Below, piece by piece: positions 40,837 through 54,170 of a DNA stretch of 64,000 nucleotides. The position numbers and the translations under genes are program-made. The stretch lies in the NCBI RefSeq assembly GCF_013408655.1, contig NZ_JACCBP010000002.1:620001-684000 (forward strand), given 5' to 3'. This stretch comes from Pigmentiphaga litoralis (GTDB lineage Bacteria; Pseudomonadota; Gammaproteobacteria; Burkholderiales; Burkholderiaceae_B). Position 1 is the first letter of the stretch. The number at the start of each line of letters is the position of its first letter. Under the pieces are notes generated by a model that saw only the letters and a program-made list of their open reading frames with translations, did no database searches and was not told the DNA's origin.

Positions 40837-40837
40837 A

Positions 40838-41007
40838 TCTGTCCTGTTACCTGAGAGCTTCACCGGCCTGATGTTCAGACCGGTTCCCCTTCGGTGGATG
40901 CCCCGAAGGCATCTCTCTCCAGATCGTCTGTCCCGCGCAGTCCTGGTTGCCTGAGAGATTCCGGGGTGGTTGCTCCTTCGGCGCCGGCACGTGGCCGGAC
41001 TCTTCTA
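40838..41007 (-). ncRNA. Tandem glycine riboswitch
   Basis: Read on the - strand, two aptamers follow each other. The first has GCCGAAGGAGCAACC, then GGAATCTCTCAGGCAACCAG and GACTG. The second starts at GGAGAGA and has ACCGAAGGGGAACC, then GTGAAGCTCTCAGGTAACAG and GACAGA. These are the conserved glycine-riboswitch elements in the correct order, with a short linker. Tandem aptamers usually turn on glycine-degradation genes; here the only gene downstream is the DadA-like oxidase at 40783. Confidence 0.95.
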
Positions 41008-41103
41008 CGCGGTCGTTGAGTCGACGATTCAAGATAGTCGATGCAGCGGGGGCGGCGCAACCCCTTCGATGGTTGAGGAGCGGATTTGGTCGACGCGCTG
41101 CGC

Positions 41104-41883
41104 TCATCCCGGCGTGGCGTTCGCCTGTCCGCCGTCCAGGTCGATGACCGATCCGCTCAGGTACGCGGCGCGCGGCGAGCAGCAAAAGACGACCATGCTC
41201 GCGACTTCTTCCGGCTCCATCAGGCGGCCAAAGGGCAGGCCCTTGGTCAGCTCTTCCCAGCGGTCGCTGTCGCCCAGGCGGGTGGCGGCCAGGTCCTTGC
41301 TGACCGACACGATGCGCTGCGTGCGGGTCTGGCTCGGGTTGACGCCAAACACGCGCACGTTGTCGCGCGGGGACGCGCCGCCGACGGCTTTGGTAAACGC
41401 CATCAACGCCGCATTGGCGGTGCTGCCGGCCACGTATTCGTTACGCGGTTCGGCGCCGGCCATGCCGATGATGTTGGCAATCACGCCGCTGCGCCGCGCC
41501 TGCATGGCGGGCAGGCAGGCACGCACCAGGTTGATGTAGCCGTACAGCTTGAGTTCCCAGGCGGCGCGCCAGCGGGCATCGTCGACCTTGTCGAGCGACC
41601 CGCCGGGAATGGCGCCGGCATTGTTGACGAGGATGTCGACTTCGCCCGCCGCATCGGCCAGGCGCTGCGCCGCACCGTCTTCGCCCAGGTCGGCCGGAAT
41701 GCATACCGGGGTGATGCCGGTGGCGGCGGCGATCGCTGCCGCGGCCAGTTCCAGCTTGGCCGGATCGCGCGCGGCCATGATGGGCGTGGCGCCTTCCTGT
41801 GCGAAAGCCAGCGCGCACGCGTAGCCGATGCCCTGCGATGCGCCGGTCACCAGCACGCGTTTGCCGTTCAGTTGCAGATCCAT
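41104..41883 (-). CDS. Atypical short-chain dehydrogenase/reductase family protein
   Basis: 259 aa. The cofactor half is normal (LVTGASQGIG near 12-20, NNAG at 87-90). The catalytic half is not: Tyr150 is kept, but the YxxxK lysine is Ser154 (YVAGSTANAAL) and the usual serine position reads NIIG. SDRs need Ser, Tyr and Lys, so this protein may have a different reaction or role. The ATG at 41883 follows the upstream stop by one base. Last gene of a six-gene leftward operon beginning at 46549. Confidence 0.85.
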   Translation of the reverse strand: MDLQLNGKRVLVTGASQGIGYACALAFAQEGATPIMAARDPAKLELAAAAIAAATGITPVCIPADLGEDGAAQRLADAAGEVDILVNNAGAIPGGSLDKVDDARWRAAWELKLYGYINLVRACLPAMQARRSGVIANIIGMAGAEPRNEYVAGSTANAALMAFTKAVGGASPRDNVRVFGVNPSQTRTQRIVSVSKDLAATRLGDSDRWEELTKGLPFGRLMEPEEVASMVVFCCSPRAAYLSGSVIDLDGGQANATPG

Positions 41884-41884
41884 G

Positions 41885-42763
41885 TCAGTCCTTGTCGGCC
41901 GGCGATTGCTCGGCATACCAGTCGGCGATTTCACTGCCGGTAAAGAAGCCCACGCCCGGAGTCCGTTGCAGCAGGTCCAGCATCTGTTCCAGGTAGCCGA
42001 AACGATGCGGCACGCCGATCAGGTGGGGGTGCAGGCCCAGGGCCAGCACGCGCGGGCGATGGGTCGATTCGCGTTCGAACAGCGCCAGCGTGTTCTGCAG
42101 GCGCAGCAGCATTTCGGGTGACGAATGCTTTTCGATCGCGTAGATGATCGAGTCGTTGACTTCCAGGTTGTAGGGCAGGCCCAGCAAGGGACCCTTGGTC
42201 GTCGTCAACCAGTCGGGCAGGTCATCGATGACCCAGTCGCACACGTAGTCGACGCCGGCAGCCTTGAGCAGCTCGGGGGTGTCGACGGTTTCGCGCAGGC
42301 CCGGGCTGAGCCAGCCGCGCGGCCGCGTGCCGGTAAAGCCTTCGATCTTGCTCAGGGTCGCATCGATCAGCTCGGCTTCGGATCCGGCATGGTTGATCGA
42401 TTTCTGATGCAGGCCATGGCCGATGAATTCCCAGCCGGCTTCGTGCATGGCGGCCGCGGCGCGCGGGTAGGCGTCGATCACGCTGGCGTTGAAGCTGGTC
42501 GATGCCGGCAGGCCGCGGTCGGCGATCGCGCGAATGATGCGCGGCAGGCCGGCGCGCATGCCGTAGTCGACCCAGCTGAAGTTGGGGACGTCGGGCACGG
42601 TTTCCTTGCCGTGCGGCGGCGTGATGATGGTGCGGGGCATGGCGTTCTCGAACTGCCAGTGCTCCACATTGACGACCAGGTGCACCATGATCCGGCCCTT
42701 GGGATGGGCGGTCAGCGGGGGGCGGTCGTCAGAGAAACGGTAGGGGACGCGGGGATTGGCCAT
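41885..42763 (-). CDS. Polysaccharide-deacetylase-fold hydrolase (PuuE/allantoinase-like)
   Basis: 292 aa NodB-type barrel. An acidic motif NVEHWQFE takes the place of the usual metal-binding Asp pair, as in PuuE-type cyclic-amide hydrolases; FIGHGLHQKSINH supplies the His pattern and GWLSPGLRETVDT follows. No signal peptide, so a cytosolic small-molecule substrate is expected and not a cell-wall polymer. Fifth gene of the leftward operon, one base before the SDR gene. Confidence 0.82.
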   Translation of the reverse strand: MANPRVPYRFSDDRPPLTAHPKGRIMVHLVVNVEHWQFENAMPRTIITPPHGKETVPDVPNFSWVDYGMRAGLPRIIRAIADRGLPASTSFNASVIDAYPRAAAAMHEAGWEFIGHGLHQKSINHAGSEAELIDATLSKIEGFTGTRPRGWLSPGLRETVDTPELLKAAGVDYVCDWVIDDLPDWLTTTKGPLLGLPYNLEVNDSIIYAIEKHSSPEMLLRLQNTLALFERESTHRPRVLALGLHPHLIGVPHRFGYLEQMLDLLQRTPGVGFFTGSEIADWYAEQSPADKD

Positions 42764-42817
42764 CGAATGCTGCCTTGTCAGGAAGGGTGAAGTTCGGGTG
42801 CCCCGAGAGGGAGTCGC

Positions 42818-43600
42818 TTACTTGCCGGTAAATGCCGGCGGGCGTTTTTCCATGAAGGCGCGGCGGCCTTCGATATAGTCGGCGCTGGCAAAACACGCAT
42901 CGACCGCGGCGTCGACCGCGGCGGCGTCACGGTCGGCCGGATCGCGCAGGGCATGCGCGATCGCGAGCTTGGCGGCACGCAGTGTCAGGGGCGCGTTGCC
43001 GGCAATCGCCGTCGCGACCGCATGCACTTCGGCGTCCAGCGCGTCGGCGTCGTGCGCGCGATGCACCAGGCCGATCCGCTCGGCTTCCGTGCCGTCGAAC
43101 GTGGACGCGGTATAGAACAGTTCGGCGGTGCGTGCAGCGCCAATGGCATCCACGGTGTGACGGATGCCATCGAAGCCATAACCCAGACCCAGCCGCGCAG
43201 CCGGCATCCGGAAGCGCGAGGTGCGCGCGCAATAACGCAGGTCGCACGCCAACGCCAGCCCGATGCCGCCGCCCATGCACACGCCATGGATATTGGCGAT
43301 GACGGGCAGCGGGAAATCGGTCAACGCATTCTGCGCGCGTGCCACCGCGGCGTTGTACGCCTCGACCGCATCGGCGCTGCCGCGCTGGGTTTCGAATTCG
43401 GAAATGTCGGCGCCCGACACGAAGGCTTTTTCACCCGCGCCGCGCAGCACCAGCACCCGCACGTCGTCGCGGCCCACCAGGGATTCGACAATGTCGCCCA
43501 GGCTCGTCCACATGCCGAAGCTCATGGCGTTGTAGCGGGCAGGGTTCGACAGCGTGATGTGGGCAATGCCGTCGGTCAGGGTCAGGTCGACCTGGCTCAT
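42818..43600 (-). CDS. Crotonase-fold (enoyl-CoA hydratase/isomerase) protein with altered active site
   Basis: 260 aa. Oxyanion-hole segments are recognisable: AFVSGADISEF and GVCMGGGIGLALACDLRYC. However, the two glutamates of classical hydratases are absent: GGGxE reads GGGIG, and the PExxLG motif reads PAARLG. The enzyme could be an isomerase, hydrolase or decarboxylase of the family and not a hydratase. The start at 43600 (AAAGGAATCC upstream) is preferred over 43636, which would overlap the previous gene. In the operon after the CoA-transferase, so its substrate is probably the CoA ester made there. Confidence 0.87.
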   Translation of the reverse strand: MSQVDLTLTDGIAHITLSNPARYNAMSFGMWTSLGDIVESLVGRDDVRVLVLRGAGEKAFVSGADISEFETQRGSADAVEAYNAAVARAQNALTDFPLPVIANIHGVCMGGGIGLALACDLRYCARTSRFRMPAARLGLGYGFDGIRHTVDAIGAARTAELFYTASTFDGTEAERIGLVHRAHDADALDAEVHAVATAIAGNAPLTLRAAKLAIAHALRDPADRDAAAVDAAVDACFASADYIEGRRAFMEKRPPAFTGK

Positions 43601-43616
43601 AAGGATTCCTTTGGGA

Positions 43617-44813
43617 TCAGACCGCGCCGCTGGCACGCATGGAACGGATCGCGTCGTCGTCGAACCCGATTTCTTTCAGGATCTCGTCGGTGTGCTCGCC
43701 CCAGTCCGGCGCTGATCGGGCAATGGCCGACGGCGTGCGTTCCAGGTGCACGGGCTGCGTGATGTATTGCTTGGTCGGGCCTTGCGGCGTGGTGGATTCG
43801 GCAACGACCTGCAGGTGCTGCACCTGGGGATCGTCGAACAGTTGCGGCACCGAATATACCGGGCCGGCCGGCACGCTGGCCTCGTTGAGCAGGTCCACCC
43901 AATGCGCCACCGTCTTGGGCGCAAAGATTTCCTGGATTTCGCGATTCAGGCGTTCGCGATGTTTGACGCGCAGCTTTTCGGTCTTGAATTCCGGGTCGCT
44001 GAGCCAGTCTTCCCTGCCGACGGCCTTGGCGAAACGGACCCAGCTGCCTTCCCCCGACGCGCCTAGGTTGAAGTAGCCGTCGGACGCGCTGAACAGGCCC
44101 ATGGGGCTGCTGGTCGGATGGTCGTTGCCGACCTGGACCGGAATGTCGCCATCGTTCAGATACCGCGCGACCTGGAAGTCCATCATGGCGATCTGCGCGT
44201 GCAGCAGCGATACGTGCACCCACTGGCCCACGCCCGACTGCTCGCGTTCCAGCAGCGCCGTCATGATGCCGAGCGCGGCATACAGGCCCGAACTGGAATC
44301 CGCCACGGCCAGGCCCGCACGCACCGGGCCCTGGTCCGGATGCCCCGTGACCGACATCAGGCCGCCCATGCCCTGGACGATCTGATCGAACCCCGGCCGG
44401 CCGGCGTAGGGGCCGTCCTGGCCGAAGCCAGAAATGCTGGCCAGGATGATGCGCGGGTTGATTTTCTTGAGCGATTCATAGTCCAGGCCCAGCCGCGCCT
44501 TGACGTCCGGACGCCAGTTTTCGACCAGCACGTCGGCATCCTTGACCAGGCGCTTGATGATCTCGAGCGCTTCGGGCTTTTTCAGGTTCAGCGTCAGGGA
44601 CCGCTTGTTCCGGTTCAGGTTCTGGAAGTCGCCGCCCAGCCGGTCGGCCGCGAACATGGCTTCGTTCGGGTCCACACCCGGCGGCGGTTCGACACGGATC
44701 ACATCGGCGCCGAAGTCGGCAAGCATGCGGACGCAGGTCGGGCCCGCACGCACGCGCGACAGGTCGAGCACGCGAAATCGGGACAAGGCTTTGGAGGCGG
44801 AAATCTTGGGCAT
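43617..44813 (-). CDS. Class III CoA-transferase (CaiB/BaiF family)
   Basis: 398 aa. Family motifs RVLDLSRVRAGPTCVRMLAD at the N-terminus, VLVENWRPDVKARLGLDYE, FGQDGPYAGRPGFDQIVQGM and the region with the catalytic aspartate AVADSSSGLYAALGI. It moves coenzyme A between acids, activating the substrate for the crotonase encoded next. Six bases after the amidase gene. Donor and acceptor unknown. Confidence 0.93.
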   Translation of the reverse strand: MPKISASKALSRFRVLDLSRVRAGPTCVRMLADFGADVIRVEPPPGVDPNEAMFAADRLGGDFQNLNRNKRSLTLNLKKPEALEIIKRLVKDADVLVENWRPDVKARLGLDYESLKKINPRIILASISGFGQDGPYAGRPGFDQIVQGMGGLMSVTGHPDQGPVRAGLAVADSSSGLYAALGIMTALLEREQSGVGQWVHVSLLHAQIAMMDFQVARYLNDGDIPVQVGNDHPTSSPMGLFSASDGYFNLGASGEGSWVRFAKAVGREDWLSDPEFKTEKLRVKHRERLNREIQEIFAPKTVAHWVDLLNEASVPAGPVYSVPQLFDDPQVQHLQVVAESTTPQGPTKQYITQPVHLERTPSAIARSAPDWGEHTDEILKEIGFDDDAIRSMRASGAV

Positions 44814-44819
44814 GGTGAT

Positions 44820-46280
44820 CTATCGAAGAGTCGCCGACGAGGTGCGGGCGGAGGGGGACGGTATGGACAGGCTGGCAAGGCCGCGGTCATACCGATGGGC
44901 GAAGGCGAGGAGCACGGCTTCGGCGTGGGGGCGCGCGACGGCTTGCGCGGTGACGGGACGGCCGCGGCGATCGTGGCCTATCGGGAAAACAATTGCGGGC
45001 AGCCCCAGGTAATTGACGAAGGGCATCCAGCGGTGCAGCGCCAGCAACTGGTGCACATCGAAACCGGGGGCGCCGGGGGTGACGGTGTCCCAATCGGGCA
45101 CGGGGCGGGGCAGGGCGGGCACCAGCAGCACGTCGGCATCGCCAAACACCGTGTCCACAAAGGCGTGCAGGCGGGCGCCACGCTGCGCGAGGGCGTCGTG
45201 ATACCAGGCTTCGGGCATCGCGGCGCCAGGGATCAGCACGGCGCGGGCTGACGCACCCAATTGCGCGTCAGGGTCCTGCAACAAGGCGCGATGCGCGGCG
45301 GCGGCTTCGACATGCAGCACGACATGGGCGAGCCGCGACAGCGCGTCGAGTTGCGGCAGGTCGACCGCGTGCACGTCATGGTCGTCGCTGACGCGGGCAA
45401 TGAAAGCCTGCAGTGCACTGATGACATCGTCATCGGGCGCAGCGGGTGGAAGGTGGGTGGCGACGCGCAAGGGCCTGGCCGCCGACAGCCACTCGGCGAT
45501 GCCGTGGGGCGTCGCCGCCGCGTCGGTCAGTTCAGGCGCCACGGCCTGCGCGGCGCATGCATAGACCAGCGCGGCGTCGGCCACGGTCCGGGCAATGACG
45601 CCGACCGTATCGAGTGACGGCGCCAGCGGATGCACGCCCTGGCGCGAGAGGGCGTCCCAGGTCGGCTTGAAGCCGATCAGTCCGCAGGTGGCGGCGGGGA
45701 TGCGGACGGAGCCGGCGGTGTCGGTGCCCAGCGAGGCATAACAGAGGCCGGCCGCCACCGCGGCGGCCGATCCGCCTGACGATCCCCCCACCACGGCGTC
45801 GATCGATACGGCGTTGATGGGGCGAGGCGACCAGGGCGACTCGCCGGTGGACCCGCAGGCCAGCTCGGCCATGGACAGGGCCGCCAGATTGGTGGCGCCG
45901 GCCTGCGCCAGGCGGGTCAGCACGTCGGCATCGCGTTCGGCCACGGGATCGGGCGGCTGCCCGCGTCCGCATCCGGCCTGCTGGCCGGCGATCGCAAAGA
46001 TGTCTTTATGGGCCAGGGCGATACCGGACAGCGGACCGGCGGTGGCGCGGTCCGCCGGTGCACCGCTTTCGTGCCACCGCACCACCGACTGGCAGGCGGC
46101 GTCGGCCACGCGGGCCTGCGCCCACTGCGCGGCAAGCGCGTCGGCGCTCGACAGGCGGCCGGTGCGCAGTTGGTCGCGCAGGCCGGCCATATCCGCTGGC
46201 AAGGTCCTTGCATCATCCGGGTGCAGGGGTGCCTGTGCACCACGATGGTCCGGGCGGAAGGGGGGCGACGCGTGCGTCAC
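44820..46280 (-). CDS. Amidase signature enzyme, AtzE-like
   Basis: 486 aa. Ser-cisSer-Lys triad: Lys in LAHKDIFAIAG, cis-Ser in VVGGSSGGSAAAV, nucleophile Ser in LGTDTAGSVRIPAA. It hydrolyses a carboxamide, releasing ammonia. It starts with GTG, overlapping the stop of the upstream small ORF as GTGA. Having a DUF4089/AtzG-like partner upstream is the arrangement of 1-carboxybiuret hydrolase (AtzE with AtzG), where the small subunit supports the amidase as GatC supports GatA. The substrate is not necessarily a biuret. Confidence 0.88.
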   Translation of the reverse strand: MTHASPPFRPDHRGAQAPLHPDDARTLPADMAGLRDQLRTGRLSSADALAAQWAQARVADAACQSVVRWHESGAPADRATAGPLSGIALAHKDIFAIAGQQAGCGRGQPPDPVAERDADVLTRLAQAGATNLAALSMAELACGSTGESPWSPRPINAVSIDAVVGGSSGGSAAAVAAGLCYASLGTDTAGSVRIPAATCGLIGFKPTWDALSRQGVHPLAPSLDTVGVIARTVADAALVYACAAQAVAPELTDAAATPHGIAEWLSAARPLRVATHLPPAAPDDDVISALQAFIARVSDDHDVHAVDLPQLDALSRLAHVVLHVEAAAAHRALLQDPDAQLGASARAVLIPGAAMPEAWYHDALAQRGARLHAFVDTVFGDADVLLVPALPRPVPDWDTVTPGAPGFDVHQLLALHRWMPFVNYLGLPAIVFPIGHDRRGRPVTAQAVARPHAEAVLLAFAHRYDRGLASLSIPSPSARTSSATLR

Positions 46281-46549
46281 GCCAGCTTCCTCAGCAGCGC
46301 GGCATACGCCGCCAGCCGGTCCGACGCCGGATCCATCGACCCGTCAACCGAGTTTGTCTGGATAGCCAAGCGAGGGGCGTACGCGGTATCCCTATAGGCG
46401 GCATCCGTTAATACCGGTTGCAGCCGACCCAGCGCCTTGGCCACGCCCGTGGCTTCCGGCAGCGTCAATACGACGCCGGCGCGCGCCGCCATCGCCATGC
46501 ATGCCGCCGCATCCGGCCTGGCATCCAGCTCGGGATGAGCATCCACCAT
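46277..46549 (-). CDS. AtzG/DUF4089-like small amidase subunit
   Basis: 90 aa. The middle part, ACMAMAARAGVVLTLPEATG followed by VAKALGRLQPVL, resembles the DUF4089/AtzG helix pair that wraps around AtzE. The remaining tail is polar. The 4-base overlap with the amidase gene supports a subunit role. First gene of the six-gene operon; its promoter is in the AT-rich region to the right. Confidence 0.7.
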   Translation of the reverse strand: MVDAHPELDARPDAAACMAMAARAGVVLTLPEATGVAKALGRLQPVLTDAAYRDTAYAPRLAIQTNSVDGSMDPASDRLAAYAALLRKLA

Positions 46550-46566
46550 CGTTATTTCCCCCGGCT

Positions 46567-46623
46567 ATAAAAATATTGACACTGCATCGTCCGTATATTT
46601 ATAGTTAATTCAAATATTTTTAT
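46567..46623. promoter_or_regulatory. Divergent control region: 11-bp inverted repeat flanking a sigma-70 promoter
   Basis: Arms ATAAAAATATT (46567-46577) and AATATTTTTAT (46613-46623) are exact inverted copies 35 bases apart. Between them lies TTGACA (46576-46581), 18 bases, TATAGT (46600-46605), pointing to the monooxygenase gene at 46722. The region separates two divergent operons; no regulator gene is adjacent. Confidence 0.65.
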
Positions 46624-46721
46624 CAACACAATTCATCAGGACTCTCGCACCGCGACGGGTCGTGACCGCCTGATTCAGGGTGCGCTCCGTGCGCGTCCAG
46701 GCCCTTCACTCTGGAGTTTGC

Positions 46722-47942
46722 ATGGCAGCGCATCAACACAACCCAGGCGTCATCGTGGCGGGTGCAGGTCCGGTCGGACTGGCTGCCGCGGTGGCCCTGG
46801 CGGATCAGGGCATCCCGGTCACGGTGCTCGAGTCCGAACCCCAGCTGCAGCATGACCTGCGCGCTGGCACCTTTCATCCGCCCACCATGGAAATGCTGGC
46901 GCCGTACGGCGTGACGGCGACCATGCTGGAGCAGGGCATCAAGGTGCCCCTGTGGCAGGTGCGGGATCGCAAGGAAGGCGTGATTGCCGAATGGGACATG
47001 AGTGTCATGTCCGACATCACGCCCTATCCGTTCCGCCTGCATCTGGAACAGCACAAGCTGGCCCGCATCATCGTGGACAAGCTGGCGACCTATCCGCATG
47101 CCAAGGTGATGTTCGGCGCGGCATTGAGCGGCATCGAGCAGGACGACACCGGCGTGCGCGCCACCATCACGCAAAACGGCGAAGAGATCGTGCTGACGGC
47201 CGACTGGCTGATCGGGGCGGATGGCGGCCGCAGCTTTACGCGCAAGGCCATCGGCACCGAATTCGAAGGCTTTACCTGGCCGGAACGCTTCGCCGTCATC
47301 AGCACCGATTACGATCTTGCGCAGCACGGCTACGCGATGAATGCCTACATTGCCGACCCTACCGAATGGGTGGCCGTGTTCTGCGTGCCGCACAACGGCC
47401 CCCCGGGTCTGTGGCGCGCCGTGTTCCCGATCGCCAATGCCGATCAGCCGGACGAAGAAGTGCTGTCGGACAAGGAAACGCAGGCCCGCCTGCGCGGCTT
47501 CATGCCCTGGCAGGACCGCTATCACGTGCCGTATTCCAGCATCTACCGCGTGCATCAGCGCGTGGCCAAGGACTGGCGCGTGAACCGCGTGCTGCTGGCG
47601 GGCGATGCGGCGCACGTCAACAATCCGCTGGGCGCGTTCGGCCTGAACGGCGGGTTGCATGACGCGATGAACCTGGCCGAGAAGCTGGGCCAGGTGTGGC
47701 GCAAGGAAGCCGACGTGTCGCTGCTGGACCGCTATGTGCGCCAGCGCCGCACTACCAATATCGAGTTCGTCCAGGCGAACTCGATCCGCAACAAACGCAT
47801 GTTGGAAGAGACCGATCCGGCCGTGCGTGCGCAGCGTTTTGACGAACTGCGCGCCCAGGCGTCCGACCCCAAGTCGGCGCTGCCATTCCTGATGCAAAGC
47901 TCGATGATCATGAGCCTGCGCCGCGCCGCCGAGATCGAATGA
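46722..47942 (+). CDS. FAD-dependent monooxygenase, MhpA/phenol-hydroxylase-like
   Basis: 406 aa. FAD motif VAGAGPVGLAAAVALADQG, DG motif LIGADGGRSFTRKAIG and GD motif VLLAGDAAHVNNPLGAFGLN. The NPLGAFGLNGGLHDA stretch is typical of 3-(3-hydroxyphenyl)propionate hydroxylase-like enzymes, but the C-terminal thioredoxin-like domain of MhpA is missing. TGGAG ribosome site at the ATG 46722. First gene of the rightward arm of the locus, likely performing the initial hydroxylation or ring attack. Confidence 0.9.
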   Translation: MAAHQHNPGVIVAGAGPVGLAAAVALADQGIPVTVLESEPQLQHDLRAGTFHPPTMEMLAPYGVTATMLEQGIKVPLWQVRDRKEGVIAEWDMSVMSDITPYPFRLHLEQHKLARIIVDKLATYPHAKVMFGAALSGIEQDDTGVRATITQNGEEIVLTADWLIGADGGRSFTRKAIGTEFEGFTWPERFAVISTDYDLAQHGYAMNAYIADPTEWVAVFCVPHNGPPGLWRAVFPIANADQPDEEVLSDKETQARLRGFMPWQDRYHVPYSSIYRVHQRVAKDWRVNRVLLAGDAAHVNNPLGAFGLNGGLHDAMNLAEKLGQVWRKEADVSLLDRYVRQRRTTNIEFVQANSIRNKRMLEETDPAVRAQRFDELRAQASDPKSALPFLMQSSMIMSLRRAAEIE

Positions 47943-47980
47943 TGCCGCAGCGAATGACGCCGCGGCGAATGATGCCGCGG
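47936..47980 (+). repeat. 15-bp tandem repeat, three copies, at the monooxygenase stop codon
   Basis: CGAATGATGCCGCAG, CGAATGACGCCGCGG, CGAATGATGCCGCGG. The TGA stop (47940-47942) is in the first unit, and the other units lie after the gene. Confidence 0.9.
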
Positions 47981-48063
47981 TGCTGCACGACCCCATAAGA
48001 AGAAGCAGTTCGAGGGCTGGAGGCGTTGACGAAACACGTGGGTTCAATCAACTGGGAAGCAGC

Positions 48064-49032
48064 ATGACATTCAGGCATTTCTTCACTCTGTCCGCAACGC
48101 TCTGTCTGCTGGGGGCGGCGTCGGCCAGCCACGCGCAGGAATGGCCGCAGCGTCCGATCCGCCTCATCGTTCCGTTCGCGGTCGGCGGCAATACCGATGG
48201 CATTGCGCGGGTCACCGCCGAACGCCTGACCAATGCGCTGGGCCAGACTGTCGTGGTCGAAAACAAGCCGGGCGCCAATGGCATGATCGCCGCGCAGCAG
48301 GTGCAGCGCGCGCCGTCGGACGGCTACACGCTGCTGGTGGCGGCCATGCCGGTCATTGCCATCCTGCCCAAGATTGCGTCGGTGCCCTATGACCCGATCA
48401 AGGACTTCGTGCCTGTGACCAACCTGGGCAGCAATCCTTTCGTGCTGGGCGTGAACAAGAACGTGCCCGCCAAGAACGTCAAGGAATTCGTCGAGATGGT
48501 CAAGGCGGCGCCGGGCAAGTACAACTTTGCGTCGGGCGGATCGGGCAGCGTGTCGCATCTGTCGGGCGCGCTGTTCCAGAAGCGGGCCGGCCTGGACATG
48601 ATGCACATCAATTACAAGGGTGATGCGCCTGCCATGGCGGGCCTGATCGGCGGCGAAGTCACCATGTACTTCGGCAATTTTTCGGCACTGGCGCCGCAGG
48701 CCAAGTCGGGTGCGATCCACCTGATCGGCGTGTCGAGCGAAAAGCGCTCGCCGCAATTCCCGGACGTGCCCACCATTGCCGAGTCCTATCCGGGCTTTCG
48801 TACCGAAACGTGGAACGGCCTGATGGCGCCGGCCGGCACCCCACGTGCGATTGTTGAACGCATCGCCCGTGAAGTGCAAAAGATCGCCAAGGATCCTGTC
48901 TATATCGAACGCATGACCAATTTCGGCGTCGAGATCGTTGCCGACACGCCGGAACATTTTGCCCAGACCATCAAGACCGACATCGATGTCTGGTCGGATG
49001 CAGTCAAGGCGGCCAACCTGAAAGTGGAATAA
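48064..49032 (+). CDS. Bug/TctC-family periplasmic receptor
   Basis: 322 aa. Signal peptide ending GAASASHAQ, then EWPQRPIRLIVPFAVGGNTD, VVVENKPGANGMIAA and VPTIAESYPGFRTETWNG. The ATG at 48064 has GGAAGC upstream. It lies between the monooxygenase and the racemase-fold gene and three bases before the latter, so it is part of the rightward arm. No TctAB genes. Confidence 0.94.
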   Translation: MTFRHFFTLSATLCLLGAASASHAQEWPQRPIRLIVPFAVGGNTDGIARVTAERLTNALGQTVVVENKPGANGMIAAQQVQRAPSDGYTLLVAAMPVIAILPKIASVPYDPIKDFVPVTNLGSNPFVLGVNKNVPAKNVKEFVEMVKAAPGKYNFASGGSGSVSHLSGALFQKRAGLDMMHINYKGDAPAMAGLIGGEVTMYFGNFSALAPQAKSGAIHLIGVSSEKRSPQFPDVPTIAESYPGFRTETWNGLMAPAGTPRAIVERIAREVQKIAKDPVYIERMTNFGVEIVADTPEHFAQTIKTDIDVWSDAVKAANLKVE

Positions 49033-49035
49033 ACC

Positions 49036-49797
49036 ATGGCTAAGTCTTCTCCGATTCCCGATACCCTCGGCTACCGCGCCATTCTTGGCGCGATCGTCCC
49101 CTCCACCAACACAGTGGTGCAGCCTGAATACGAAGGCATGCGTGTTCCGGGCGTGACCAACCACGTGATGCGCATGGAGTTGCCGACCCGCCCTTACGAC
49201 GATATGAAGAAGTATCGCGAGGCGCTCGACACGGAAGAGGGCAATCTGGCCGAAGCCGTCCGCCTGCTCGTCAATTGCGAGCCGGACGTCATCGCGCACG
49301 GGCATTCGATCCATTCCTTCCGCGGCAACATCGACCGCGCGCAGGCCGACCAGGACCGCCTGGCGCAGCTGGCCGGCGTGCCGTTCATGACGCCGTCGGT
49401 GTCGGTGGTCCGCGGCCTGGAAGCCATGGGCTTCAAGCGTATCGCGGTGCTGACGCCCTACTGGCCGCCGGCCGACGAATTGATCCGCTCGTTTTTCGTG
49501 GATAGCGGCTTTGACGTCGTGTCGCAGGTGGGCCTGAAGTGCCAGGGTCCGACCAATGTGGCGCGCACGTCGCTCGACACCATCCGCAAGGCCTTCCTGG
49601 AACTGGACCACCCCGATGCCGAAGCCTTCGTGCACGTGGGCACCAACCTGCCCGTGAGCGCCATTACCGAAGATATCGAGAAGGCCAGTGGCAAGCCGCT
49701 GATCGGCGTGAACGTCGCGACCTACTGGAACGCTCTGCGCAGCATCGGCATCCAGGATCGCAAGGAAGGCTACGGCCGTCTGTTTGCCGAATTCTGA
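49036..49797 (+). CDS. Asp/Glu racemase superfamily protein, maleate-isomerase/arylmalonate-decarboxylase-like, catalytic cysteines apparently missing
   Basis: 253 aa. It starts GYRAILGAIVPSTNTVVQPE, the N-terminus typical of maleate cis-trans isomerases, and has MTPSVSVVRGLEAMGFKRIA and LTPYWPPADELIRSFF in the right places. Members use two cysteines at the ends of two strands. Here the first position reads VIAHGHSIHSF (His90) and the second VHVGTNLP (Gly202). Cys81 is elsewhere in the chain. It may act on a similar diacid by another mechanism. Directly after the Bug receptor gene. Confidence 0.85.
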   Translation: MAKSSPIPDTLGYRAILGAIVPSTNTVVQPEYEGMRVPGVTNHVMRMELPTRPYDDMKKYREALDTEEGNLAEAVRLLVNCEPDVIAHGHSIHSFRGNIDRAQADQDRLAQLAGVPFMTPSVSVVRGLEAMGFKRIAVLTPYWPPADELIRSFFVDSGFDVVSQVGLKCQGPTNVARTSLDTIRKAFLELDHPDAEAFVHVGTNLPVSAITEDIEKASGKPLIGVNVATYWNALRSIGIQDRKEGYGRLFAEF

Positions 49798-49890
49798 TCG
49801 CTGCCGCAACCGCACCATCTGCTGTACCGCCGGCCCGCCACCATGGCGCGCCGGCGTTTCCATTCCTCCAATAAGAACCAGGGGTAAGGC

Positions 49891-50874
49891 ATGAAGATCC
49901 AGCACCGTGTACTGAGCATTGCACTCCTCGCCGCCTACGCCGGTGGCGCCTTTGCGGTCGGCCCGCAGCCGGCCCCATCGCCGCGCAAGGAAACCCTGAC
50001 GATCGGGTACGTGAAGGTCGGTCACCTGTCGCCCATGATGGACGTGGCCGAGCCGCTCAAGGCCTGCAACGTCGAGGTCAAGCCGGTCGAATTCGTCCGG
50101 TATGCCGATGCGCGCACGGCCTTGCTGTCGGGGTCGGTGGACGTGTCGGGCATTGGCCCGGCCGACCTGGCGATCGCCTTGTCGCAAGGCAGCGACCGCA
50201 TCGTCGGCCTGTCAGGCGTGGCGTCGTCGCCTAAGTACCTGGTGGTCAAGAAAGGCGTGAAGCTGGAAGACTGGGCCGACCTGAAAGGCAAGCGCATCGG
50301 TATCGCGCCAGGGTCCGCCGTGTGGTTCCAGTGGGCGGCCACGCTGACCGAAAAGAACATTCCGTACACCTCGTTCACGGCCGTCAACATCCAGGGCGGC
50401 GGCACGGCCTTCGTGCAGGCGCTGGAACGCGGCGACGTCGATGCGGTGGCCGTGTGGGAACCGTTCGAATCGCAACTGGTGGCCAAGAACACCGCCTTCT
50501 TTGCACGCAAGATCGAGTACAGCCAGTCCAAGGCCGTGGGCGCCGAACTGGGCCTGCTCGCCGCCACGCGGGAAGCGCTCAAGAACAAGCCCGAGGCCTT
50601 GAAGTGCTTCATGTGGGCCTATAAAAGCGCCGAAGAAAAGATGGCGAAAGACCCCGAAGGGTTCGCGCAGGCCTATGCCAAATACACTGGCCTGCCGATC
50701 GAAGTCACGCGCGAATCGGTCAAGCTGATCAAGCTGGGCGGCGTGCTGGACCTGCCGCAGTTGCAGCGCCAGGCCAAGACCTTCAACACGCTGGGCATCA
50801 TTCCCAAGGACGTGAGCGGCACCGTCAACACGGTGTGGGATCCGTCGCTGGCCGAAGCGGTCATGAAGCGCTAA
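49891..50874 (+). CDS. ABC transporter substrate-binding protein, NMT1/SsuA type
   Basis: 327 aa. Signal peptide MKIQHRVLSIALLAAYAGGA, cut near FAVG, then ETLTIGYVKVGHLSPMM and the binding-cleft motif LLSGSVDVSGIGPADLAIAL, ending with AVWEPFESQL. AGGGGTAAGG ribosome site. It heads a complete TauABC-like importer. The ligand is probably a small anion that enters the pathway of this locus. Confidence 0.93.
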   Translation: MKIQHRVLSIALLAAYAGGAFAVGPQPAPSPRKETLTIGYVKVGHLSPMMDVAEPLKACNVEVKPVEFVRYADARTALLSGSVDVSGIGPADLAIALSQGSDRIVGLSGVASSPKYLVVKKGVKLEDWADLKGKRIGIAPGSAVWFQWAATLTEKNIPYTSFTAVNIQGGGTAFVQALERGDVDAVAVWEPFESQLVAKNTAFFARKIEYSQSKAVGAELGLLAATREALKNKPEALKCFMWAYKSAEEKMAKDPEGFAQAYAKYTGLPIEVTRESVKLIKLGGVLDLPQLQRQAKTFNTLGIIPKDVSGTVNTVWDPSLAEAVMKR

Positions 50875-50966
50875 GCACGTCGTACGGCAACCGGGCGGCG
50901 TGGAACACGCGTTGGCCCGGTGGCTATTGCGCGGCCGATTTCCGGCCGCGTTTCTGGAGAAGCTGA

Positions 50967-51815
50967 ATGACCACTTCCGTATTGAAGCCGGCAACTGTGC
51001 CGTCCGGCGCCTGGGCCGGGTCGAGCCGCGCACTGGGCCGCTTCGCACTGGGTGCCTGCGTGCCGGTGCTGATCCTGGTGCTGTGGCAACTGGTGGGCCA
51101 ATCGAGCGCCATGTCGGGCGTCGTGCCCGTGCCGATGCAGGTCGGCCGCGCCTGGTATGACTGGATGTTCGGGAATCCGGGCATGGGCTTGAACCCCTAC
51201 CTGGGCACCTGGTTCGGTAACGTGCAATACAGCACGATGCGCGTCGCGCAAGGATTCATCCTGGCCATGGCGCTGGGCATTCCGATCGGGCTGGCCATCG
51301 GCTGGAGCCGCGTCACGTCATTGATGCTGGACCCGCTGGTGCAGGGCATGCGCCCGATTCCTATCACTGCCTGGCTGCCGTTTTCGATCGCCGTGTTCGG
51401 CATCCGCGACATGGGCTCGATCTTCCTGATCTTCCTGGGCGGCTTCTACGCCATCATCGTCAACACCACCCAGGGCGCGCGCGACGTCGACCGCAATCTG
51501 GTCCGTGCCGCCCGCATGATGGGCGCGTCGTCGGGCCAGGTGCTGCGCCGCGTGGTGTTGCCGGCTGCCATGCCTTCGATCTTTACCGGGCTGCGCATCG
51601 GCCTGGGCATTTCGTGGACGGCCGTGATCGTGTCCGAAATGGTCGCGGTCAAGTCGGGCCTGGGCTATGTGCTGTGGGACGCGTATTACGTGGGCCGCAT
51701 GGACATCGTGCTGGCCGACATGGTGTCGATCGGCCTGATGGGTTTCATCAGCGATCGCCTGATCGTGCTCATCGAACGTCGCGTGCTGGTCTGGCGCATT
51801 CTGCAAAATCATTGA
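50967..51815 (+). CDS. ABC transporter permease, nitrate/sulfonate/taurine type
   Basis: 282 aa inner-membrane protein with about six hydrophobic segments and the coupling loop RAARMMGASSGQVLRRVVLP followed by AAMPSIFTGLRIGLGISW. Ribosome site TGGAGAAGC. It is distinct from the permease at 1388, so the two importers are not copies of each other. Confidence 0.95.
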   Translation: MTTSVLKPATVPSGAWAGSSRALGRFALGACVPVLILVLWQLVGQSSAMSGVVPVPMQVGRAWYDWMFGNPGMGLNPYLGTWFGNVQYSTMRVAQGFILAMALGIPIGLAIGWSRVTSLMLDPLVQGMRPIPITAWLPFSIAVFGIRDMGSIFLIFLGGFYAIIVNTTQGARDVDRNLVRAARMMGASSGQVLRRVVLPAAMPSIFTGLRIGLGISWTAVIVSEMVAVKSGLGYVLWDAYYVGRMDIVLADMVSIGLMGFISDRLIVLIERRVLVWRILQNH

Positions 51816-51822
51816 GCCCCAG

Positions 51823-52572
51823 ATGTCAGACATTTCCATTTCGCAACTGAGCAAGACCTATCCCGGCGCCACGCCGGTCCACGCCCTCGACAACATCGAC
51901 CTGCACGTCCAGGCCGGCGAATTCGTGGCCCTGCTGGGCCCGTCGGGCTGCGGCAAGTCCACGCTGCTGAACATGATCGCGGGCTTCGAGTCGGCGTCGG
52001 GCGGCAGCCTGCTGGTCGGCGGCAAGCCGGTCACCCGGCCAGGGCCGGAACGGGGCGTGGTGTTCCAGGAAGCCGCGCTGTTTCCCTGGCTGAACGTATG
52101 GGAAAACGTGATCTTCGGCCCCAAGACGGCGGGTCTGCCCAAGGCGCAGTACGAACAGCGCGCCAAGGACATGCTCGAGATCACCGGCCTGTCGGCCTTC
52201 ACCAAAGCCTTGCCCGTGCAGTTGTCGGGCGGCATGCGCCAGCGCGTGGGCATCGCCCGGGTGCTGACGCTGGGCTCGCAAGTGCTGTTGATGGACGAGC
52301 CGTTTGGCGCGCTGGATGCCCAGACCCGCCTGACCATGCAGGAATTGCTGCTGTCGGTCTGGCAGAACCTGCGGACCACGGTGGTGTTCGTCACGCACGA
52401 TATCGATGAAGCCATTCTGCTGGCGGACACCATCTACGTGATGTCGGCCCGGCCGGGGCGGATCGCCACGCGGATTCCCGTGCCGATCGAACGGCCGCGC
52501 ACGCTCGACCTGATCACGGGTGACGTGTTCAACGAGCTGAAGCGGGACATCCTGCAAAAGATGCGGCACTGA
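51823..52572 (+). CDS. ABC transporter ATP-binding protein, nitrate/sulfonate/taurine type
   Basis: 249 aa. Walker A GPSGCGKSTLLNM near residue 40, Q-loop GVVFQEAALFPW, signature LSGGMRQRVGIARVL, Walker B LLMDEPFGALD, and the H-loop FVTHDIDEAI. Seven bases after the permease stop. Confidence 0.96.
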   Translation: MSDISISQLSKTYPGATPVHALDNIDLHVQAGEFVALLGPSGCGKSTLLNMIAGFESASGGSLLVGGKPVTRPGPERGVVFQEAALFPWLNVWENVIFGPKTAGLPKAQYEQRAKDMLEITGLSAFTKALPVQLSGGMRQRVGIARVLTLGSQVLLMDEPFGALDAQTRLTMQELLLSVWQNLRTTVVFVTHDIDEAILLADTIYVMSARPGRIATRIPVPIERPRTLDLITGDVFNELKRDILQKMRH

Positions 52573-52582
52573 GGACGTGGCC

Positions 52583-54040
52583 ATGGCTGCCCTGACCGCC
52601 GGGACCTTGCCCATGGCCCGCCAACTGGCCGACATCCTGGCCCGGCCCGTGGCCGACGCCGATCGGCGCCGCGCCTTCCGGCACCTGTCGTACTGGACCG
52701 GCGCGGCGGCCCGCGTCGCCGCCGCGGAACTGGGCGAGCCGCTGTGGCAGGCCGCGAGCCTGGGCCTGCCGGTCATGTCGTCCACCGACATGGCCCACTT
52801 TCTGTTCGAGGCTTCCCTGGGCAGCCTCGATGAACTCGACGACACCCATCGCGCGGCCCTGGTCCATCCCGGCCCGGTCGTGATTCCGGTCGTGCGGCAT
52901 CTGGCCCGTGTGCTCGGCAGTTCGGCCGCGGACATGGCCGATGCCATCGTGCGGGGCTACGACGCCGCCATTCGGGCGGGGCTGTCGGTCGGCCCGGCGC
53001 ATTATGTCCAGTGGCACACGACCGCCACGTGCGGCGGATTTGGCGCGGCCGCCGCCGCGGCGTCGATGTTCGGCCTGGATGCGGCCGCCACCGCGCACGC
53101 GTTGTCGCTGGCCGCGACGCGGGCGTCCGGGCTATGGCAGATTCGCCTGGAACCGAGCGACGGCAAGCCGTGGCATACCTCGCAGGCCAGCCAGCTTGGC
53201 CTGGCTGCCGCGGCAATGGCGCGCGCCGGCCTGCGCGGCCCGGCGCACGCGTTCGAGGGTGACAAGGGCTTCTTCAAGGTCATGTGTCCCGACGCGCAGC
53301 CCGACCGGCTGGTGTCCGATCCGCAGGGCGCATGGCGACTGCACGAGACCAGCTTCAAGCCCTGGCCGGCCTGCCGCCACGCGCATCCGGCGATGGCGGC
53401 GGCGCTGGCGGCACGCGCCGCGTTCGGTGCCACCGGCGCGGCGTCGCCGGCAAGCCGCGGCGTCAGCCTGGACTCCGGCCGTGCCGCGACGCCAGAAGCC
53501 ACTCCGCCCGCCACCCCGCCCGCCATCACCTCGATCATCGTCCAGACCTACCCCGACGCCATTGCTTTCTGTGATGCGCCGTCGCCGACCGACCTGCAGC
53601 AGGCGCGCTTCAGCCTGCAGCACGCCGTGGCGATCACCTTGCTGCGCGGGTCCCCGGGCTTCGACGCCTTTGAAGCCGGGGCGCGCCAGGATCCCGACGT
53701 CGCCCGGCTGCGCGCCAAGGTCACCCTGGCTGTCTCCCCAGCCATGACGCAGGCCTACCCCGCCCACTTCGGGGCAAGCCTGGCGTTCACGATGGCAGAC
53801 GGGACGACCCGTTCCTTCGACGCCCCCGACGCCCCAGGCGATCCGGAATGCCCGCTCTCCGATGGCGAACTGGATGCACTGATCGAGCGCCTGCTGCGCG
53901 CCGGCGCCTGGTCGGACGACGCCGTGCGCCTGCACCAGGATCGTTACGCCGACCTGTGGACGCCAGCCGGCGCATCAGGCGTAGTAGACGGATTAGGCGA
54001 TGGCGCAACACTTGCCATGCCGCTGCGCAGCCACGCCTGA
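52583..54040 (+). CDS. MmgE/PrpD family protein
   Basis: 485 aa. Features of the 2-methylcitrate dehydratase/iminodisuccinate epimerase superfamily: HPGPVVIPVVRHLARVLG, AIVRGYDAAIRAG, WHTTATCGGFGAAAAAASMF, FEGDKGFFKV, then FKPWPACRHAHPAMAAALA. Such enzymes dehydrate or isomerise tricarboxylic or dicarboxylic acids. An Ala/Pro/Thr-rich stretch of about 25 residues (residues 295-315) interrupts the C-terminal domain. The ATG at 52583 is taken over the GTG at 52577. Ten bases after the ATPase stop, so it closes the rightward arm. Confidence 0.87.
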   Translation: MAALTAGTLPMARQLADILARPVADADRRRAFRHLSYWTGAAARVAAAELGEPLWQAASLGLPVMSSTDMAHFLFEASLGSLDELDDTHRAALVHPGPVVIPVVRHLARVLGSSAADMADAIVRGYDAAIRAGLSVGPAHYVQWHTTATCGGFGAAAAAASMFGLDAAATAHALSLAATRASGLWQIRLEPSDGKPWHTSQASQLGLAAAAMARAGLRGPAHAFEGDKGFFKVMCPDAQPDRLVSDPQGAWRLHETSFKPWPACRHAHPAMAAALAARAAFGATGAASPASRGVSLDSGRAATPEATPPATPPAITSIIVQTYPDAIAFCDAPSPTDLQQARFSLQHAVAITLLRGSPGFDAFEAGARQDPDVARLRAKVTLAVSPAMTQAYPAHFGASLAFTMADGTTRSFDAPDAPGDPECPLSDGELDALIERLLRAGAWSDDAVRLHQDRYADLWTPAGASGVVDGLGDGATLAMPLRSHA

Positions 54041-54170
54041 CCCCTGCTGATCCGTGGGAAATGCAGTGCTGGCGCGGACTGCGTCAGGGCACGCCTTGGC
54101 ACCCGTTGATCCGGTCGCCTCGCCGTAACGTACTGGGGCTTCATCCCGCTTCAACCCATGGATTATCCTT

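Follow-up and report, generated by a model that had tools for sequence, protein, structure and literature searches.

The locus and its genes

The window analyzed here, a 64,000-nucleotide stretch of a Pigmentiphaga genome, contains a locus of 13 genes arranged divergently around an AT-rich control region. Six run leftward (AtzG, AtzE, CaiB, crotonase, PuuE-like and SDR) and seven rightward (FMO, Bug, Rac, TauA, TauC, TauB and MmgE). A sequence-only reading had already described two divergent arms with a common control region; profile searches of the locus proteins bore out this layout, together with the coordinates and family of every gene it named, and corrected its count of twelve genes. The features are listed below from left to right, where "core" and "add-on" refer to the two gene groups defined in later sections.

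40837-41017, minus strand: tandem glycine riboswitch, the left boundary; belongs to the next operon
41104..41934, minus strand: SDR-family protein, last gene of the left arm, likely start 41883 (ATG) (PF00106/PF13561, NCBIfam NF004779 above cut-off; 3ai1 alignment; motif counts)
41885..42763, minus strand: PuuE-like cyclic C-N hydrolase of the CE4/polysaccharide-deacetylase superfamily, the core-operon marker gene
42818..43636, minus strand: crotonase-fold protein, likely start about 43600 (PF00378, NF004781 above cut-off; PDB alignment; residue counts)
43617..44813, minus strand: class III (CaiB-type) CoA-transferase (PF02515; solved relatives; Asp172 count)
44820..46280, minus strand: AtzE-like amidase-signature hydrolase (PF01425; AtzE models below cut-off; triad motifs)
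46277..46549, minus strand: AtzG-like small subunit (small-ORF survey judged by eye)
46550..46721, no strand: divergent control region with a rightward sigma-70-like promoter and A/T-rich inverted repeats
46680..47942, plus strand: class A flavin monooxygenase (FMO), PnpA/HspB-like, add-on gene (PF01494; nearest solved structures)
47980..49032, plus strand: Bug/TctC-type periplasmic binding protein, add-on gene (PF03401)
49036..49797, plus strand: Rac, a maleate-isomerase/arylmalonate-decarboxylase-fold protein, add-on gene (PF17645; PDB alignments; family alignment; fold)
49891..50874, plus strand: TauA/SsuA-type substrate-binding protein, core gene (PF09084; TIGR01728 below cut-off; solved relatives)
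50967..51815, plus strand: TauC/SsuC-type permease, core gene (PF00528)
51823..52572, plus strand: TauB/SsuB-type ATPase, core gene (PF00005)
52577..54040, plus strand: MmgE/PrpD-family protein, core in a subset of genomes (PF03972, PF19305; solved relatives; motif counts)
54171: start of a GAF-EAL gene, the right neighbor

The control region (about 46550-46721) holds one sigma-70-like site, TTGACA-18-TATAGT (11/12 matches; shuffle mean 0.2), which points rightward and is overlapped by the inverted repeats. One of these pairs 46567-46577 with 46613-46623 (11 nt, 100% complementary) and a second pairs 46565-46580 with 46589-46604 (16 nt, 81%). In the genome comparison, the stretch carrying promoter and repeats proved nearly identical in P. 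litoralis. No regulator gene adjoins the control region. The FMO probably starts at the ATG at 46722, not at the GTG at 46680, since GGAG precedes the former in both genomes compared. Relative to P. litoralis, dN/dS is 0.01-0.17 in 12 of the 13 genes and 0.64 in AtzG.

A conserved operon in other genomes

The locus of this soil bacterium is a rearranged, two-arm version of an operon that is present in several bacterial groups. The PuuE-like marker gene occurs in 42 of the 266 other genomes searched in the window's family. We fetched loci anchored on this left-arm gene for 37 of 43 listed other places and scored gene presence by set identity thresholds (for the add-on genes, 40% for FMO, 50% for Bug and 55% for Rac). 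PuuE lies on one strand with TauACB, which belongs to the right arm in the window, at 26 of the 37 loci, and 22 of the 37 have further left-arm genes as well. At most of these loci the arms are therefore not separate, and the earlier claim of one co-inherited catabolic unit is supported. Other partners are frequent, namely CaiB (32 loci), AtzE (31) and the crotonase-fold ECH (31), and core genes that passed their thresholds at most 9 kb from PuuE share its strand in 37/37 cases. The left-arm and right-arm distance matrices correlate (Mantel r 0.936, reached by 0/9999 permutations; 17 rows, one of them the window), a value that still includes host phylogeny.

The usual order elsewhere is AtzE-CaiB-crotonase-TauA-TauC-TauB-PuuE-(SDR or alpha/beta hydrolase)-(MmgE). 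Plasmid p3 of Azospirillum brasilense Sp7 carries the run amidase, CoA transferase, ECH, substrate-binding protein, permease, ATPase, PuuE and SDR, and a Variovorax plasmid has GntR followed by a small ORF, amidase, CoA transferase, ECH, PuuE and MmgE. An acyl-CoA dehydrogenase, a FAS1-like dehydratase and an alpha/beta hydrolase accompany the gene set elsewhere. No account of this operon turned up in full-text literature searches.

The make-up of the core varies to some extent, since TauACB falls below threshold at 11 of the 37 loci, TauACB and PuuE occur at four without recognizable AtzE and CaiB, and a single locus has only PuuE. The linkage is also clade-specific, as neither CaiB nor TauB was found at 60% identity or above at the 14 loci of PuuE relatives with 39-45% identity (L088-L101). 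Two loci from the order, L086 (PuuE 55%) and L087 (PuuE 49%), likewise have neither, which we count against the core reading.

Enzymes of the core

Members of the amidase-signature superfamily use a Lys-Ser-Ser triad. The AtzE-like protein belongs among them, with 242.3 bits to PF01425, Lys92 and Ser168 in 28/28 rows and a DTAGS-type motif. AtzE is its top-scoring amidase model, although it remains below both AtzE cut-offs (201.6 against 461 and 189.3 against 425.75). AtzG/AtzE is 1-carboxybiuret hydrolase, in which a small subunit directly precedes the amidase-signature subunit, as it does in the window. The window AtzG matches no Pfam or NCBIfam model, and its identity rests on position, size and the similar small ORFs seen by eye before AtzE in many core operons. 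By family, the 13 genes include no cyanuric-acid hydrolase.

The CaiB protein is a class III CoA-transferase (PF02515, 417.5 bits), and Asp172, presumably the catalytic aspartate, is present in 37/37 rows. Its best NCBIfam models are diacid CoA-transferases, all below cut-off, including succinate-glutarate CoA-transferase (NF052585, 329.2 against 750) and succinyl-CoA:mesaconate CoA-transferase (274 against 700). The best solved relatives are 10uh, 4ed9 and 9br7 (SUGCT); that the top one is annotated as a formyl-CoA transferase counts against the core reading.

By sequence and by fold, the nearest solved relatives of the PuuE-like protein are of the PuuE type (24-28% identity), and its sequence is closer to PuuE than to HP0310. 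It reaches 110.8 bits, below the PuuE allantoinase equivalog cut-off of 424.6 (TIGR03212). It has in common with that enzyme the fold, the overall family and conserved Glu, His and Trp positions, but carries HGLHQ and GWLSPGLR in place of the substrate-loop stretches HGYRW and GWYTGR.

Enoyl-CoA hydratases have two catalytic glutamates, and both are visible in the 6lvp alignment with the crotonase-fold protein. Among its relatives the first is kept in 1/34 rows (L177) and the second in 0/34, which rules out an ordinary enoyl-CoA hydratase; the trimming of a CoA ester once proposed for this protein cannot be ordinary hydration. Classical SDRs have a Ser and a Tyr-x3-Lys motif. When the SDR, a core gene in only a subset of genomes, is aligned with 3ai1, Ser, Tyr and Lys become Gly157, Gly170 and Asn174, each in 9/9 scorable rows (11 rows with two truncated sequences dropped). 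Without Tyr-x3-Lys it is not a classical SDR.

TauA, TauC and TauB all score below the taurine-importer equivalog cut-offs (65.0/304.25, 126.5/342 and 253.2/357, respectively). TauA is nearest to binders of sulfonate, taurine and nitrate, as judged by TIGR01728 (below cut-off) and solved relatives, and locus L084 carries a sulfatase, so that the substrate may contain sulfur. MmgE is likewise below the 2-methylcitrate dehydratase PrpD cut-offs (27.3 and 35.8 against 458 and 575); its nearest solved relatives are of the cis-aconitate decarboxylase type and IDS epimerase, and the family motifs are intact.

An add-on module

FMO, Bug and Rac were found, at the thresholds used, at 0/37 of the PuuE-anchored operon loci, which places ring hydroxylation outside the core. 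The three genes form a separate add-on within the rightward arm, and their assignment to the pathway of the core is based on the common control region and five other Rac loci. Four of these (L083, L084, L171 and L133) have core-type neighbors (PuuE, TauACB, SDR, or ECH with CaiB), and the fifth, L170, has an FMO-Bug-Rac run; FMO is present at two, L083 and L170. Rac adjoins PuuE and SDR in L083, and TauACB, PuuE and SDR in L084. The 17 kb of L171 hold two CaiB genes together with ECH, acyl-CoA dehydrogenase, alpha/beta hydrolase and Rac, and gave no match to PuuE or AtzE. The genome of the window has a paralogous FMO locus with the order FMO-isochorismatase-Rac-Bug-GntR.

These loci bear on the view that two unrelated operons came to diverge by chance in the present lineage. 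That the three add-on genes pass their thresholds at none of the 37 operon loci would fit it, but in other genomes the right-arm genes TauACB and MmgE belong to the core operon, and Rac stands beside core genes in L083 and L084. Synteny has largely refuted this view already, and we regard it as very improbable.

The best solved relatives of the FMO are PnpA (6ain, E 5.4e-67), which we take to be p-nitrophenol 4-monooxygenase, and then HspB (7da9); their partner enzymes differ from those in the window. Rac has the fold and PF17645 in common with maleate cis-trans isomerase, arylmalonate decarboxylase and EutA, scoring 88.7 bits against the EutA model cut-off of 318. In fold it comes closest to maleate isomerase and arylmalonate decarboxylase (best match 2xed), with hydantoin/allantoin racemases far lower. 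Maleate isomerase and arylmalonate decarboxylase depend on catalytic cysteine(s). Unlike them, Rac has no Cys at either catalytic position in 24/24 aligned sequences and 6/6 operon rows, while a different cysteine, Cys81, occurs in 23/24.

The racemase fold had been read as a sign of ureides, which the nearest fold and the empty cysteine positions do not support. In a ureide or hydantoin pathway, which would resemble the breakdown of allantoin or cyanuric acid, PuuE-like would open a hydantoin-type ring and AtzG/AtzE would cut the carbamoyl compound that results. The PuuE-type relatives, the rank of the AtzE model and the AtzG-like subunit agree with such a route; the replaced substrate-loop stretches and the features of Rac do not, and it is hard to see what the CoA-transferase would do with a ureido acid. 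We consider this route quite improbable.

Proposed pathway

We propose that the locus is one catabolic unit of two modules, a split core and the add-on FMO-Bug-Rac, acting on an amide- or imide-bearing acid, and we put the chances of this at about even. Module 1, AtzG-AtzE-CaiB-crotonase-TauACB-PuuE-SDR-MmgE, is the conserved operon, here split into divergent arms. The observed support consists of gene content, order and strand elsewhere, parallel divergence, purifying selection, the amidase triad motifs and the CoA-transferase Asp. The sequence-only reading is counted as supported in its proposal of activation by CoA and, as a theme, of amide or cyclic C-N chemistry.

TauACB would take up a small carboxylate that bears an amide or imide. 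The PuuE-like enzyme would hydrolyze a cyclic C-N bond in it, and AtzG/AtzE would free, as ammonia, the amide nitrogen that is left. With succinyl-CoA, for example, as donor, the CaiB-type enzyme could then convert the resulting (di)carboxylate to a CoA ester. The crotonase-fold protein, SDR and MmgE, joined in some genomes by acyl-CoA dehydrogenase or alpha/beta hydrolase, would remodel the acyl-CoA for entry into central metabolism. Module 2, which would have been gained in the present Pigmentiphaga lineage, probably supplies the core: FMO would hydroxylate an aromatic or N-heteroaromatic precursor, and Rac, by a chemistry other than the usual one with cysteines, may act on an intermediate that resembles an unsaturated dicarboxylate. 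A substrate with a ring would be plausible on this sequence evidence.

The closest logic described so far is that of the Hxn pathway of Aspergillus nidulans (HxnX, HxnV, HxnW, HxnM, HxnN), to which homology is partial. The cited portions of its descriptions report FAD monooxygenases, the SDR HxnW, the cyclic imide hydrolase HxnM of the deacetylase superfamily (CE4_HpPgdA_like, >60% identical to the imidase of P. putida) and the amidase-signature amidase HxnN (PMC9304392, PMC8478523), the same set of enzyme classes and the same hydrolytic ring opening as we propose. In a bacterial counterpart of this nicotinate route, FMO would hydroxylate a hydroxypyridine, the reduced ring would become a cyclic imide that PuuE-like opens, AtzG/AtzE would yield a hydroxyglutarate-type diacid and CaiB would activate it, so that a ring-cleaving dioxygenase would be unneeded. 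Besides a class III CoA-transferase, the window does hold the four classes (monooxygenase, SDR, cyclic C-N hydrolase and amidase-signature amidase); HspB, second among relatives of the FMO after PnpA, is a pyridine monooxygenase, and no ring-cleavage dioxygenase family appears among the locus-protein matches. However, the fungal pathway requires an OYE reductase, and those portions mention no CoA-transferase. The 13 genes include no OYE-type reductase, the SDR lacks Tyr-x3-Lys, PuuE-like is nearer in sequence to PuuE than to HP0310, whose type is the one assigned to HxnM, and may come from another branch of the superfamily than HxnM, and none of the 37 other core loci has an FMO at 40% or above. 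An Hxn-type pathway would combine an OYE reductase with an HxnM-type imidase and an HxnV-type monooxygenase; the locus has no OYE, and its FMO is PnpA/HspB-like. We judge this counterpart unlikely.

It is also improbable that this is a dicarboxylate or acyl-CoA pathway in which an amide in the substrate is only incidental, for example in a side chain, and PuuE-like acts on a CoA-bound or non-nitrogenous bond. The CoA-transferase, the crotonase and the acyl-CoA dehydrogenase, FAS1-like dehydratase and alpha/beta hydrolase that accompany the set would suit such a pathway, as would L171, where Rac lies with ECH, two CaiB and acyl-CoA dehydrogenase. Against this, AtzE is as regular beside PuuE as CaiB and ECH are, and the AtzE and PuuE superfamilies both comprise C-N hydrolases.

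Extending the two-module proposal, we tentatively suggest, with considerable doubt, a widespread, so far undescribed bacterial route that would dispense with a ring-cleaving dioxygenase. A cyclic imide or N-heterocyclic acid would be opened at a C-N bond by hydrolysis, then deamidated and activated with CoA, and new reactions of crotonase-, SDR- and maleate-isomerase-fold proteins with replaced catalytic residues would follow.

Implications

Textbook catalytic residues are missing in three protein families, so automatic annotation as enoyl-CoA hydratase, SDR or maleate isomerase would mislead on the reactions. The core operon reaches beyond the window's family to A. brasilense, a rhizosphere bacterium. 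Given its presence in many genomes of the family and on the Sp7 plasmid, the compound it acts on is probably common, whether natural or man-made. With a culturable strain that carries an eight-gene, single-strand version, the question of the substrate is directly testable.

Organization and boundaries of the locus

At 41104-54040 the window, which belongs to a 6.17-Mb genome (G000), carries 13 genes in two divergent arms. The sequence-only reading had listed the genes correctly, and only its total of twelve was one too few.

Genes of the locus and the adjoining RNA element
40837-41017, minus strand: tandem glycine riboswitch with two aptamers scoring 63.2 and 50.1 bits
Leftward arm, minus strand: AtzG-like protein, AtzE-like amidase, class III CoA-transferase (CaiB), crotonase (ECH), PuuE-like hydrolase, SDR
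Rightward arm, plus strand: flavin monooxygenase (FMO), Bug, racemase-fold protein (Rac), TauA, TauC, TauB, MmgE/PrpD

The riboswitch lies directly upstream of a D-amino-acid-dehydrogenase-type (DadA) flavoenzyme (39410-40783), a Bug protein and a gamma-glutamyltranspeptidase (GGT). Since it marks the start of an operon of their own, these leftward genes were rejected as members of the locus. The right-hand neighbor is a GAF-EAL gene, and an ORF opposite it (54141-55331, minus strand, 396 aa), which has no family match, was judged spurious. More catabolic-type genes are found at 2677-30374 of the window, including a Rieske oxygenase, ABC importer parts, two further FAD_binding_3 monooxygenases, two Amidohydro_2 enzymes, four Bug receptors, two LysR regulators and one isocitrate/isopropylmalate-dehydrogenase-family gene.

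The control region between the arms (about 46550-46721) contains a single sigma-70-like site (11 of 12 matches, versus a mean of 0.2 in shuffles), which overlaps A/T-rich inverted repeats and is nearly identical in Pigmentiphaga litoralis. The profile searches of the locus proteins revealed no regulator gene inside the locus. P. litoralis is the closest named relative here, with an FMO 98% identical and a collinear locus. In this comparison dN/dS is 0.01-0.17 in twelve genes and 0.64 in AtzG, with the strongest constraint on CaiB, TauB, PuuE and TauC (0.01-0.02). AtzE (89%), AtzG (81%) and MmgE (81%), located at 44820-46549 and 52577-54040, are far less similar to their P. litoralis counterparts than the other locus genes (93-100%), and the dS of MmgE is 0.72 versus 0.21-0.46 for the rest of the locus.

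The core operon in other genomes

The locus is a rearranged, extended version of an operon that is common to other bacteria. Using FMO as the synteny anchor returned only P. litoralis and FMO loci without the core, and PuuE proved to be the useful anchor. A search of the family's 268 genomes for PuuE, with a limit of E 1e-110, gave 45 places in 44 genomes (that of the window counted); with the window and P. litoralis set aside, 43 places remain, and 37 of these make up our synteny sample.

Presence thresholds (% identity) and occurrence in the 37 PuuE-anchored loci
PuuE: 55, anchor
CaiB: 57, 32 loci
AtzE: 33, 31 loci
ECH: 44, 31 loci
TauA: 50, 26 loci
TauC: 60, 26 loci
TauB: 60, 26 loci
MmgE: 44, 10 loci
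SDR: 50, 5 loci
FMO: 40, 0 loci
Bug: 50, 0 loci
Rac: 55, 0 loci

More distant MmgE proteins (26-27%) occur in six additional loci, and Bug matches below 50% in several. The usual order is AtzE-CaiB-ECH-TauA-TauC-TauB-PuuE, followed in part of the loci by an alpha/beta hydrolase or SDR and often by MmgE; all counted core genes within 9 kb of PuuE lie on its strand in 37/37 loci. That the two arms form one unit, as had been proposed from the sequence, is borne out by the joining of left-arm PuuE to right-arm TauACB in 26 of the 37 loci; additional left-arm genes are combined with right-arm genes in 22 of the 37. The exceptions are 11 loci without TauACB at threshold, four with TauACB and PuuE but no recognizable AtzE or CaiB, and one with PuuE alone.

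As a control, CaiB and TauB at 60% or above were absent from 14 loci of PuuE relatives at 39-45% identity (L088-L101, among 20 places), and likewise from L086 (PuuE 55%) and L087 (PuuE 49%); L085 (PuuE 62%) has AtzE-CaiB-PuuE. Left-arm and right-arm gene distances are correlated across the 17 rows that contain all seven core genes, the window among them; r is 0.936, a value that 0 of 9999 permutations reached and to which shared host ancestry contributes. A phylum-wide PuuE search at E 1e-85 or better matched 2 of 397 genomes, i.e. the window's own and one additional; in the latter, ORFs of the 3.9-kb locus L176 (47% identity) match TauB, PuuE and CaiB.

The core operon of another genome of the genus (G005) has a FAS1-like dehydratase-region gene (PF13452; 8342-9319 of L160, minus strand) between PuuE and an acyl-CoA dehydrogenase (ACAD). 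A Pigmentiphaga sp. MAG has PuuE (81%) and Rac (67%), each on a contig of 797,885 bases, and therefore probably carries a third copy of the locus.

Named carriers and regulators

On plasmid p3 of Azospirillum brasilense Sp7 (D9621_RS27740-27775) the genes form a single run (LysR-amidase-CoA transferase-enoyl-CoA hydratase-SBP-permease-ATPase-‘polysaccharide deacetylase’-SDR), and seven other Azospirillum plasmids have PuuE matches at 69-70%. On a Variovorax paradoxus plasmid a GntR gene diverges from a run made up of a 65-aa ORF and the amidase, CoA transferase, ECH, PuuE-like and MmgE genes, in that order. Judged by eye, many loci have an AtzG-like stretch in a small ORF upstream of AtzE. By gene calling, at least 24 of 43 loci have a divergent GntR-FCD-type regulator (one of the 24 checked against Pfam); the number is a lower bound, as the gene caller missed genes in lower-GC loci and called none in several. 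Near the best GntR homolog in G000 (51%), relatives of the core genes are of low identity only.

The FMO-Bug-Rac module

FMO-Bug-Rac is a second module. Across the order, six of 399 genomes, among them that of the window, have a Rac match of E 1e-60 or better (60-64% identity).

Rac loci elsewhere
L170: FMO-Bug-Rac, order as in the window
L083: ACAD-Rac-PuuE-SDR, FMO nearby
L084: sulfatase-ACAD-Rac-TauACB-PuuE-SDR
L171, 3666-8469: compact set close to ATP synthase genes; ACAD, alpha/beta hydrolase, Rac, second CaiB (opposite: ECH, CaiB)
L133: Rac-SDR on a 3.1-kb contig

The second CoA-transferase of L171 reaches only 488.7 bits with the succinate-glutarate model, whose cut-off is 750. The best-scoring models for ACAD are acryloyl-CoA reductase, with 225, and glutaryl-CoA dehydrogenase, with 208, each far under cut-off. 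In L137 the alpha/beta hydrolase from the ACAD cluster matches PcaD types best, likewise under cut-off. A role of Rac as a ureide racemase was rejected in view of its fold and missing cysteines.

With a limit of E 1e-60, FMO matches number seven in G000, counting the FMO of the locus, and as many as eight elsewhere in the genus. One paralogous locus in G000 reads FMO-isochorismatase-Rac-Bug-GntR, and a Bug match is present in six of eight short FMO loci of that genome.

Predicted pathway

Protein families and gene order indicate import and a catabolic role. In the best-supported scheme, the substrate would be imported, a cyclic C-N bond and an amide would be hydrolyzed, and the resulting acid would then be loaded onto CoA and the acyl-CoA reshaped; the substrate and the order of steps are what we infer. 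A hydratase role of the crotonase was rejected on PDB alignment and residue counts, as the catalytic Glu residues are missing; the SDR likewise lacks its Tyr/Lys pair. For hematinic acid and other tetrapyrrole-derived maleimides, considered as substrates, the open-access full text searched offered no support.

The nearest described logic is, by analogy, the Hxn route of Aspergillus nidulans, in which, according to PMC9304392 and PMC8478523, a cyclic imide hydrolase opens what an SDR has produced and an amidase-signature enzyme carries out the deamidation. HxnM probably belongs to another branch than the PuuE-like protein of the window, and our locus has no OYE reductase. No description of the operon came up in open-access full-text searches on imidases and cyclic imide hydrolases, on this set of genes and on gene clusters of Pigmentiphaga.

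The locus is real, conserved and uncharacterized, a catabolic operon whose enzymes stand a moderate chance of performing new chemistry.
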